Shown: positions 14,887 to 61,223 of the stretch, piece by piece
Layout of the letters: each line of letters opens with the position of its first letter
Numbering within the stretch: position 1 is the first letter of the stretch
Assembly (NCBI GenBank): GCA_011390635.1
Contig: JAABSA010000006.1
Span: 62,001 to 126,000 of the forward strand
Reading direction: 5' to 3'
DNA length: 64,000 nt
From: Desulfotignum sp.
GTDB lineage: Bacteria; Desulfobacterota; Desulfobacteria; Desulfobacterales; Desulfobacteraceae
Program-made: the position numbers and the translations under genes
Notes under the pieces: model-generated
What the model saw: only the letters and a program-made list of their open reading frames with translations
The model's database searches: none
What the model was told of the DNA's origin: nothing

Positions 14887-15759
14887 TCAGGTTTTCCGGT
14901 CATCTGCCGGGGGGCTTAGCTCTGTATTTTCCGTATCATCCGCAGCTGGACCAATATTTTTTTCTGCACCAAAGGTATGCTCAATAATAAATTCCTCCAC
15001 CTTTTCCATGGAGGTGGAAACAATCACGCGTTTGATGTTGATATCTTTGATAACGCCGTCCATATAAGGATTAAGCACCTCCACCAGCCTGGATTTCTGG
15101 GCTTTGACCTTATCAAAATCTTCAACATCACTGTGAACAAGAGAACTGAGAAACAAAATAGCTGCTTCTTTGGCCCTGGGATGCAGCCGGGGCACTTGCT
15201 GCCCGGGCATCAATTCCTTGAGGGCCAGTTCCATATTCAGGCAAAGATACCGGTCCGGAGCGCCTGAACTGATTTTGTTCAAATTTACAGCGATGGGTGC
15301 CATGGGGATGATCACTGCAGTGTTTTCAGGATCTTCACCAGGTTTTTTGGCGCGGGTTTTTTCCCATTCTGCAACCCTTTGACTTTCCTCTTGCAGCAGC
15401 ATGCGCTGATCGGTTAATTCCATTACATCAAACACATAGGTGTTATTTTTTTCCCATACATTTTCAATGCTGGATTCCATTACCGTAAAAATCAACCGCC
15501 TGTCCTGCAAATGCCAGGTACCTTCGGCATCGCCTTTATTGGCAACGATTTTAGAAGTGGCATCTGCAATGCGCACCGAGGATTTCCAAATTCCCTTGGG
15601 ATTGATGATCAGCAGGATATAGGCCCGGTTCCGGTAATGGGTCCAGTTGCCAAGCACCATTTCCTTGTCTGCTGCATTTTTATCAGCGCAGCCGGCAATG
15701 CAAGAAACCATGCCAACCAGGAGGGCCGCCACCACAATTGTCCAAGCAAATCTTGCCAT
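14887..15759 (-). CDS. Lipoprotein with lipocalin-like and FliL-like domains
   Basis: A 290-residue protein with a lipoprotein signal: hydrophobic residues 5-18, then CIAGC with the modified cysteine at 24. Residues 35-120 look like a small beta-barrel (GNWTHYRN, GTWHLQDRRLIFTV). From about 155 the sequence resembles FliL: a strand AVNLNKI, PDRYLCLNMELAL, a helix of R-x-KEAAILFLSSL type, and a final VIVSTSMEKVEEFII. FliL itself is a membrane-anchored flagellar basal-body protein, but no flagellar gene lies near. ATG 15759 is preferred over the TTG one codon upstream. The function is unknown. Confidence 0.55.
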   Translation of the reverse strand: MARFAWTIVVAALLVGMVSCIAGCADKNAADKEMVLGNWTHYRNRAYILLIINPKGIWKSSVRIADATSKIVANKGDAEGTWHLQDRRLIFTVMESSIENVWEKNNTYVFDVMELTDQRMLLQEESQRVAEWEKTRAKKPGEDPENTAVIIPMAPIAVNLNKISSGAPDRYLCLNMELALKELMPGQQVPRLHPRAKEAAILFLSSLVHSDVEDFDKVKAQKSRLVEVLNPYMDGVIKDINIKRVIVSTSMEKVEEFIIEHTFGAEKNIGPAADDTENTELSPPADDRKT

Positions 15760-15880
15760 CAATCACATCCACACATCACAAAATTTATAGAATTACACAA
15801 AGACAAGGCTATCACGAAGGTAATACAGGGTCAATAAGGGCAGTCTTGAAACTTACGCTCAGGGGGGGGTATATAAACAA

Positions 15881-15916
15881 AAAAAGGCGCCCATCATACT
15901 ATCAGGGCGCCTTTTT
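15881..15916 (-). terminator. Intrinsic terminator after the HesB-like gene
   Basis: AAAAAGGCGCCC and GGGCGCCTTTTT form a perfect 12-base inverted repeat around a 12-base loop. Read on the minus strand it ends in a T run and lies 20 bases beyond the HesB-like stop. It could also work on the plus strand. Confidence 0.88.
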
Positions 15917-15935
15917 CAAACATTACAGCCTGCGA

Positions 15936-16253
15936 TCAATCACCGCAGGAGCCGCCGGAACCGCAGCTGCCGCATCCGGAAGCACCAAGATCCATGTTGG
16001 AATCAAGAGCAAACCCCATGCCTGTAAAGTCTATTTTTATCCGTTCCGCTTTTTGCATGAAATCTTTGTCCACAACAAACTTATGTCCTTTTACATCAAA
16101 TGCATCATCGGAATTCTTAGGCTCATCCAGAGCCATGGCAAGGGAGGGGCCCCCTCAGCCGCCGGAGTTGAGAAAAATCCGTATGGGGGTCGGTTCCTTC
16201 CCCTGAAAATAGTCATCAATCTGCGCTTTGGCAGGATCTGTCAGTTCAATCAT
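15936..16253 (-). CDS. HesB/IscA-like selenoprotein (UGA read as Sec)
   Basis: A 105-residue HesB/IscA-fold protein whose codon 33 is TGA (16157-16155). The flanks read RIFLNSGG-U-GGPSLAMALDEP, exactly the place where HesB/IscA proteins have a conserved cysteine in SGGCGG. Both sides stay in one frame and match the family, so selenocysteine is the natural reading. HesB-like selenoproteins are known in delta-proteobacteria. The tail GCGSCGSGGSCGD provides more thiol ligands. An iron-sulfur or metal-related redox role is plausible but not established. ATG 16253 follows AAGGAG. The gene has its own promoter and terminator. The other reading, a gene broken by a nonsense mutation, is less likely. 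Confidence 0.85.
16120..16134 (-). promoter_or_regulatory. SECIS-like hairpin of the HesB-like gene
   Basis: On the minus strand GGCTC and GAGCC pair around the loop TGGAT. The loop begins 25 bases after the UGA and has G in its second position. This fits the general bacterial SECIS layout of an apical loop 16-37 bases downstream with G among the first two loop bases. The stem is short at 5 pairs and SelB binding is not shown. Confidence 0.55.
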
Positions 16254-16280
16254 TTGTAAACTCTCCTTATGGTTTATTCG

Positions 16281-16308: not shown

Positions 16309-16337
16309 ATTTTAACCACGGCCCTTCTGCCTGTCAA
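16309..16337 (-). promoter_or_regulatory. Sigma-70 promoter of the HesB-like gene
   Basis: On the minus strand TTGACA (16337-16332) and TAAAAT (16314-16309) are separated by 17 bases, an almost perfect vegetative promoter. It would start transcription about 50 bases before the ATG at 16253. Confidence 0.75.
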
Positions 16338-19985: not shown

Positions 19986-20123
19986 GATTATTTCCTTTTT
20001 TGTCAGGTTTCCTTTATAAACCAGACGGCAGACAGGTTCAAGGAAATCTGACTATTTGCTGCAACAAATGGGCTCTATGAAGATTGTGGCAAAAGCCCCT
20101 AAGGTTGTCAGATCTTGATGGGA

Positions 20124-20286
20124 GCCTCTGGTGGTGTCCTGTGAACGGACCGTCAGAACCGGAGGGGGGCCTGGTAAGATGTGCCGGTATGGTTTTCAAC
20201 CAGATGGCAGGTTGCTGCACTTCACCGTTCTTATAAAAACAGGCCCCCGCAGGGTCTCGGGCAGGGCACAGGAAACCACCAGAGGC
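20124..20286. repeat. Dispersed structured element, full copy 1
   Basis: This 163-base element fills most of the 393-base gap between 19985 and birA. Its ends pair perfectly, GCCTCTGGTGG with CCACCAGAGGC. An inner pair GGGGGCCTG with CAGGCCCCC closes a variable centre of about 65 bases. Both arms recur at 61019-61185, and the 3' arm at 50448-50496. It could be a structured RNA or a non-autonomous mobile or REP-like repeat. Confidence 0.75.
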
Positions 20287-20337
20287 GGGTTCGAGGGCAG
20301 ATCGCTGCTGAGAACAATCGAAGGATAACAATTGTGC

Positions 20338-48919: not shown

Positions 48920-50449
48920 ATGTCACATTATATTGGCGCCATTGACCAGGGTACCACCAGCACCCGGTTTATCATTTTTGATAAAACCGGCACCATCATT
49001 GCCCAAAGCAGACTGGAGCATGACCAGATCTGTCAGAAGCCCGGGTGGGTGGAACACGACCCTGCCCAGATCTGGCGAAACACCAGAACGGTCATCATCC
49101 ATGCCCTGGAAAAGGCCGGCATCACCGGCAACGACCTTTTGGGCATCGGGATCACCAACCAGCGGGAAACCGTTATGGCCTGGGACAGGCATACCGGAAA
49201 GCCCCTTTACAACGCCATTGTCTGGCAGTGTGCCCGCAGCGATGATATCTGCCGGAACCTGGATAAAGTGCACGGCAAAAACTGCTTTCAAAAAAAAACC
49301 GGCCTGCCCACTGCCACCTATTTTTCCGGTCCGAAAATCAAGTGGATGCTGGATCATGTGCCGGCAGTCAAAAAAGCGGTGGACGACCGAAAAGCTCTTT
49401 TCGGCACCATGGACACCTGGGTGATCTGGAACCTGACGGGCGGTGCGGACAAAGGGCACCATGTCACTGATGTAACCAATGCCTCCAGGACCCTGCTCAT
49501 GAATCTTAAGACACTGGACTGGGACAAAGATATCCTTGAAATCCTTCAAATTCCCATAGACTGCTTGCCACATATTGTGCCTTCTTCCGATCCGGATGCA
49601 TTCGGAAAAACTCATGCCGCCGGCCCCTTACAATGCGAAGTGGTGGTTGGGGGCGCTTTGGGGGACCAGCAGGCAGCCTTGTTCGGTCACACCTGTTTTG
49701 CCCCGGGAGAGGCCAAAAACACCTATGGTACCGGGTGCTTTCTGCTGTTCAACACCGGCAATACCATCACCTTTTCAGACCATGGCCTGCTCACCACCCT
49801 GGGGTATCAGATCAAAGGAGAAAAACCGGTGTATGTGCTGGAAGGGTCCATTGCCTATGCAGGGGCTTTGGTGCAGTGGATCCGGGACAATCTGGGACTG
49901 ATATCCACAGCCCCGGAAATCGAAACCCTGGCCAATACCGTGAAGGACAATGGGGATGTCTATTGTGTTCCGGCCTTTTCCGGCCTGTTTGCCCCATACT
50001 GGCGCTCGGATGCCAGGGGGATTATTGCGGGACTGACCCAGTTTGCCACCAAAGGCCATATTGCCCGGGCGGTGCTGGAAGCCTGTGCCTTCCAGACCAA
50101 AGACATTGTGGACGCAATTTCCAGGGATATCGGCCAGAATCTGAAGCTTGCATCTCTGAAGGTGGACGGCGGCATGGTGGAGAACAACACCTTGATGCAG
50201 TTCCAGGCCGATATTTTAGATACACAGGTCATCCGTCCCAAAATCACGGAAACCACAGCCCTGGGAGCCGCCTATGCCGCCGGCCTGGCTGTCGGATTCT
50301 GGCCGGACACCCTTTCCTTGAAGAAAAACTGGCAGGTGCATTCCACCTGGGAACCGGATATGGATTCCTCGCGGCGCAGCCAATTGTATGCGGGATGGAA
50401 AAAGGCGGTGGAAAAATCCTTTGCATGGAAACGCAGCCACCCGGAATAA
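48920..50449 (+). CDS. glpK: GlpK, glycerol kinase
   Basis: A 509-residue FGGY kinase that makes sn-glycerol 3-phosphate. AIDQGTTSTRFIIFD is the first phosphate loop, ITNQRETVMAWDRHTGKPLYNAIVWQ the substrate region, and SIAYAGALVQW and KVDGGMVENNTLMQFQAD the second ATP part. AAAGGAGG lies before the ATG. It lies beside glpB, glpA and the glycerol importer. The last codons touch the 3'-arm copy of the dispersed element, so that sequence sits directly at the end of the gene. Confidence 0.95.
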   Translation: MSHYIGAIDQGTTSTRFIIFDKTGTIIAQSRLEHDQICQKPGWVEHDPAQIWRNTRTVIIHALEKAGITGNDLLGIGITNQRETVMAWDRHTGKPLYNAIVWQCARSDDICRNLDKVHGKNCFQKKTGLPTATYFSGPKIKWMLDHVPAVKKAVDDRKALFGTMDTWVIWNLTGGADKGHHVTDVTNASRTLLMNLKTLDWDKDILEILQIPIDCLPHIVPSSDPDAFGKTHAAGPLQCEVVVGGALGDQQAALFGHTCFAPGEAKNTYGTGCFLLFNTGNTITFSDHGLLTTLGYQIKGEKPVYVLEGSIAYAGALVQWIRDNLGLISTAPEIETLANTVKDNGDVYCVPAFSGLFAPYWRSDARGIIAGLTQFATKGHIARAVLEACAFQTKDIVDAISRDIGQNLKLASLKVDGGMVENNTLMQFQADILDTQVIRPKITETTALGAAYAAGLAVGFWPDTLSLKKNWQVHSTWEPDMDSSRRSQLYAGWKKAVEKSFAWKRSHPE

Positions 50450-50496
50450 GGCCCCCGCAGGATCTCGGGCCGTGCACAGGACACCACCAGGGGCGG
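50448..50496. repeat. Dispersed structured element, 3' arm only
   Basis: AGGCCCCCGCAGGATCTCGG through CACCAGGGGCGGG repeats the 3' arm of the elements at 20124 and 61019, without the 5' arm. A tail near 50581-50610 (GGTATGAGTTTTTACAAC) also resembles the sequence after the copy at 61185. It begins at the glpK stop codon, in the 198-base gap before the convergent glpB. Confidence 0.7.
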
Positions 50497-50647
50497 GCCT
50501 CCGGCAAAACGGAGCTCCGAAGGCGGATCTCCGGCACAAAACACATCAGAAGGAAGGCGTGGTCTTTTCTGGCAGCCCGCGGTATGAGTTTTTACAACTT
50601 TCCTGTGTTACTTACAGAGTTGGTGGAAGATTACCAAGGGCATAAGG

Positions 50648-60841: not shown

Positions 60842-61018
60842 TTTACTTGCCACCTTTCATGGGTCAGCAATACAGTAAAGAGATAATTGTGTGTTACTCT
60901 CCCCCGCTATTTTCCCATGACATATGGGACTCGGATAAACAAAAACTAACGATCTTTGTAGATGTATTTGAGCGCCAAAAATCTGCAACGGATGCATGTA
61001 AGTGATGTTTCGGTGAGA

Positions 61019-61185
61019 GCCCCTGGTGGTATCCTGTGAACGGACCGTCAGAGCCGAAGGGGGCCTGGCAAAACCTGCCGGGAAGGCCTACTATAGACAC
61101 GGTTGCACACTTTTTGGAAAAACGGATCCTCTCTGCAACAGGCCTCCGCAGGATCTCGGGCCGGGCACAGGACACCACCAGGGGC
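61019..61185. repeat. Dispersed structured element, full copy 2
   Basis: Most of the 542-base gap between glpR and ppaC is this 167-base element and its flanks. Ends GCCCCTGGTGG and CCACCAGGGGC pair perfectly. Relative to the copy at 20124 both arms change together, T to C and A to G, keeping the pair. Inner GGGGGCCTG pairs with CAGGCCTCC using a wobble. TGTGAACGGACCGTCAGA is identical in both copies except at one variable flank. Confidence 0.75.
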
Positions 61186-61223
61186 GGGGTATTGTCCAGC
61201 AGTATGAATTTTTAAAATTTTTC

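Follow-up and report, generated by a model that had tools for sequence, protein, structure and literature searches.

A HesB/IscA-like gene of Desulfotignum sp. with an in-frame UGA very probably encodes a selenoprotein

We found that two short open frames separated by a single UGA, on the minus strand of the analysed stretch of 64,000 nucleotides (the window), almost certainly form one functional gene of the HesB-like, or IscA_HesB_Se, selenoprotein family, in which the UGA at codon 33 would be decoded as selenocysteine (Sec), a reading drawn from comparative sequence analysis. The gene occupies positions 15936..16253 and comprises 105 codons and a stop codon. In the most likely mechanism, the ribosome would start at the ATG at 16253 and meet the UGA at codon 33, where SelB, bound to the hairpin GGCUC-UGGAU-GAGCC just downstream, would deliver Sec-tRNA-Sec. 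The predicted product is a 105-residue protein with the fold of the A-type (IscA-like) iron-sulphur carriers, in which Sec would replace the first conserved Cys. We infer that the Sec protein may act as a carrier of metal or clusters or as a selenol redox protein.

The gene, its surroundings and its protein family

The minus-strand frame begins with the ATG at 16253, ends at 15936 with a terminal TGA (codon 106) and has a single internal TGA, codon 33, at 16157-16155; its translation is MIELTDPAKAQIDDYFQGKEPTPIRIFLNSGG-U-GGPSLAMALDEPKN...GCGSCGSGGSCGD. The earlier note had given these coordinates correctly but without the strand, and the plus strand of 15936-16253 encodes no HesB/IscA-like protein. 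An open frame of 173 codons on the plus strand (window 15738-16259) lies antisense to the whole selenoprotein gene; it is simply the opposite strand of the true gene, although naive gene calling may favour it. The matches of relatives to this antisense frame are explained by the conserved gene on the opposite strand.

The promoter, ribosome-binding site and terminator described in the earlier note were all seen on the minus strand. The ribosome-binding site AAGGAG (16263..16268), read directly from the sequence, lies 9 nt before the ATG, and a near-consensus sigma-70-type promoter-like site, TTGACA-17-TAAAAT, matches at 11 of 12 positions (16309..16337); the region contains three promoter-type sites, where 1.4 would be expected. 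Downstream of the gene, a GGCGCCC/GGGCGCC hairpin followed by T's (15880..15911) was recognized as a probable intrinsic terminator; it is not among the results of the terminator scan, its loop of 12 nt being beyond the scan's range. The gene neighbourhood is retained in near relatives, and no relatives of the selenoprotein were found on plasmids.

A repeat of about 180 bp, dispersed and apparently intergenic, was observed elsewhere in the window at 20119-20289 and 61014-61188, with a partial copy at 50449-50497; it was also seen at the loci L188:16104-16301 and L173:11170-12834. The fuller copies are roughly 71-83% alike, and their ends are partly inverted copies of each other, as in MITE- or REP-like elements. 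The repeat had no match in Rfam even at a lax E-value.

The interpretation of the two frames as one complete HesB/IscA protein was borne out by profile and structure comparisons. With the TGA read through, the translation matched the NCBI curated model NF038090 (IscA_HesB_Se) over model positions 1-101 of 101, scoring 113.7 bits where the cut-off is 85, and it matched Pfam PF01521 (Fe-S_biosyn) with 30.1 bits, above the gathering cut-off of 26.3. The predicted structure of the 105-residue product (mean pLDDT 81, pTM 0.66) found E. coli IscA (1r94) as its best PDB match in Foldseek (E 2.8e-7), followed by SufA and DsrR; the Gly/Cys tail at the C-terminus is poorly predicted. A profile built from the family matched AQ_1857, a solved IscA-type protein, as well as IscA, with the Sec column aligned to a conserved Cys, which agrees with the earlier placement of the TGA at a conserved Cys position.

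Selenocysteine machinery in this genome and its relatives

Three of the genes of Sec synthesis and insertion were found in the assembly with scores over their cut-offs: selB (341.7 bits), which lies 3.8 kb ahead of the window on the same contig, and selA (601.4 bits) and selD (369.5 bits), each on another contig. The selD gene (L054:7381-8502, minus strand, contig C26 of this genome) was itself observed to be a selenoprotein gene, in which codon 42 of the listed frame is a TGA in the context GAG-U-AAK, where the U is presumably at the usual Sec position of SelD, and a stable hairpin follows this TGA.

The check for the sel genes proposed in the earlier note thus turned out positive for selA, selB and selD, and selC (tRNA-Sec) was found in relatives but not in this assembly. 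No tRNA-Sec was detected here with the covariance model RF01852 (150 of 544 first-look candidates scored), with two sequence patterns, by BLAST with the tRNA-Sec gene of a relative, by a search for the genes that surround tRNA-Sec in a near relative, or with ARAGORN, run on about 0.44 Mb of this genome, and none was found in three very close Desulfotignum metagenome-assembled genomes (MAGs; G155-G157). Of 12 genomes of the family, 9 have a tRNA-Sec over the cut-off, as do two of five near relatives, namely a further Desulfotignum MAG and Desulfospira. The assembly consists of 98 contigs and is 96.4% complete, and in one relative (G147) the tRNA-Sec gene lies 9 bases from a contig end. Since most family members tested have a tRNA-Sec, an assembly gap is the likeliest reason why none was found here. 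That this lineage instead has a strongly divergent or unusual tRNA-Sec, with Sec decoding retained, is a possibility to which we give little weight.

Exchange of Sec and Cys, selection past the UGA and the SECIS hairpin

The Sec/Cys exchange that the earlier note had anticipated at residue 33 was found among the orthologues. After identical proteins had been removed, 101 orthologues carried TGA at the codon aligned with codon 33 (16155..16157) and 23 carried TGC or TGT; the Cys loci were fetched on purpose and the Sec orthologues are related to one another, so that these numbers are neither a measure of prevalence nor independent counts. None of these distinct orthologues, whether of the Sec or the Cys type, has an in-frame stop at another codon. 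Within the same order, 127 of 146 genomes contained a match to the family over the cut-off, mostly with exactly one internal TGA, and a scan of species genomes yielded 54 loci, including those of Desulfotignum, Desulfobacula, Desulfospira, Desulfobacter, Desulfamplus and Smithellaceae.

The protein sequence was found to be constrained on both sides of the TGA. Column conservation averages 0.72 upstream of it and likewise 0.72 downstream, and among near relatives dN past the TGA is far below dS; in the comparison with locus L064, for example, the post-TGA dN is 0.012 and the dS 0.85. The earlier expectation that the gene is not decaying is therefore upheld, and neither stops elsewhere nor a loss of conservation downstream, which would have spoken against it, was seen.

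The short hairpin reported earlier, with G at loop position 2 and at SECIS distance, was located at 16120..16134 on the minus strand, starting 20 nt after the UGA. Judged by folding energy in the single sequence, this region does not stand out from chance (z = 0.16), and searches of Rfam at the gathering score and at a lax E-value detected neither a SECIS nor any other real match at the gene. The distance of the hairpin from codon 33 is constant in Sec and Cys genes alike and is thus uninformative by itself. It is the comparison across relatives, not the energy of a single sequence, from which the SECIS is judged to be real. The hairpin can form all five of its pairs in 90 of the 101 Sec genes and in none of the 23 Cys genes, and the loop UGGAY is present in every one of the 101 Sec genes (consensus GGCUC-UGGAY-GAGCC). 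The codons that build the hairpin are frozen at their synonymous sites only in the Sec genes: Ala41 is GCT in 101/101 Sec genes versus 8/18 Cys genes, Leu42 is CTG in 101/101 versus 8/15, and Glu44 is GAG in 95/99 versus 7/19, contrasts for which Fisher's test gave p values of 4e-10 to 1e-7 that are only indicative among related sequences. The two highest synonymous-constraint scores of the gene fall on Ala41 and Leu42, and distant Sec orthologues, with about 41-48% protein identity, retain the same SECIS bases.

The failure to see tRNA-Sec in the assembly would also fit a readthrough of the UGA as another residue, such as Trp, by a change of the code or by plain leakage. We regard this as highly improbable: selA, selB and selD are intact, the residue that alternates with Sec in the orthologues is always Cys, the hairpin is conserved only where the TGA is present, and the gene's own terminal stop is TGA, here and in many relatives.

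The same missing tRNA, together with the one in-frame stop and the existence of Cys relatives, could be taken to mean that an ordinary Cys-type iscA/hesB relative was broken by a nonsense mutation from TGC or TGT to TGA. A pseudogene is hardly credible for a gene whose TGA recurs in 101 distinct orthologues with both sides intact, purifying selection acting after it and the SECIS bases frozen, and we rejected this explanation because the TGA and the downstream frame are both conserved. Finally, a mechanical list of open reading frames contains a 66-residue frame starting at 16136, but it is extremely unlikely that there are two distinct genes here, or that translation starts at the internal ATG (codon 40) to give a protein of 66 residues behind a 32-codon leader frame, as the two parts combine into a single IscA fold, several orthologues have Leu in place of Met40, and the N-terminal part is conserved as strongly as the rest.

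In some genomes (for example G092, G134 and G050) the Sec copy was observed together with Cys copies lacking the hairpin, and in two of them Cys and Sec copies lie in tandem (G134 contig C94:4499-5160, G050 contig C38:1199-1886; L138, L137). Their co-occurrence may point to a sharing of tasks between the two forms or to a backup that does not need selenium.

Significance and comparison with known families

The gene is correctly read as a selenoprotein gene and is already known in kind, since HesB-like selenoproteins have been published and NCBI holds a curated model; the family has been described since 2006 and is common in its bacterial order. The earlier statement that standard gene calling would miss such a gene, and the novelty implied by it, went too far, as NF038090 was curated for exactly this family. 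The gene adds no new kind of system. It offers a clean worked case in which a frame interrupted by a stop is recognized as a genuine selenoprotein gene through SECIS synonymous sites, frozen in the Sec genes but free to vary in the Cys genes. Genomes with both Sec and Cys copies make the family suitable for testing what an A-type carrier gains from selenium, and the tandem copies in G134 and G050 are a natural pair for comparing the two forms.

HesB-like selenoproteins, including those of several Deltaproteobacteria, and changes from Sec to Cys were reported by Zhang et al. 2006 (PMC1794560), whose list includes Desulfovibrio, Syntrophobacter, Geobacter, Desulfuromonas and others, and a review of 2026 (PMC13188914) also covers the family. 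Mutagenesis and 75Se labelling identified a HesB-like selenoprotein in Methanococcus maripaludis; its function is unclear, and nitrogen fixation was unimpaired in the disruption mutant (PMC11097638).

Compared with these families, the protein is closest to IscA_HesB_Se: the match to NF038090 covers the whole length, the relatives found by the model have Sec at the same position, and there is no difference of note. The related HesB-like selenoprotein family TIGR01911 (HesB_rel_seleno) has a UxGP motif (PMC13188914), which the U-G-G-P found here fits, and the score of 30.5 bits is below its cut-off of 66.35. The members listed by Zhang et al. 2006 include deltaproteobacterial HesB-like proteins with Sec, like the one described here, and each of them may belong with either NF038090 or TIGR01911. 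The A-type Fe-S carriers IscA, SufA and ErpA of E. coli share the fold and the position of the first conserved Cys, but they have Cys where this protein would have Sec, and their equivalog cut-offs are far above its scores (30.5 versus 150.6 bits for IscA, 29.8 versus 136.2 for SufA and 27.7 versus 117 for ErpA).
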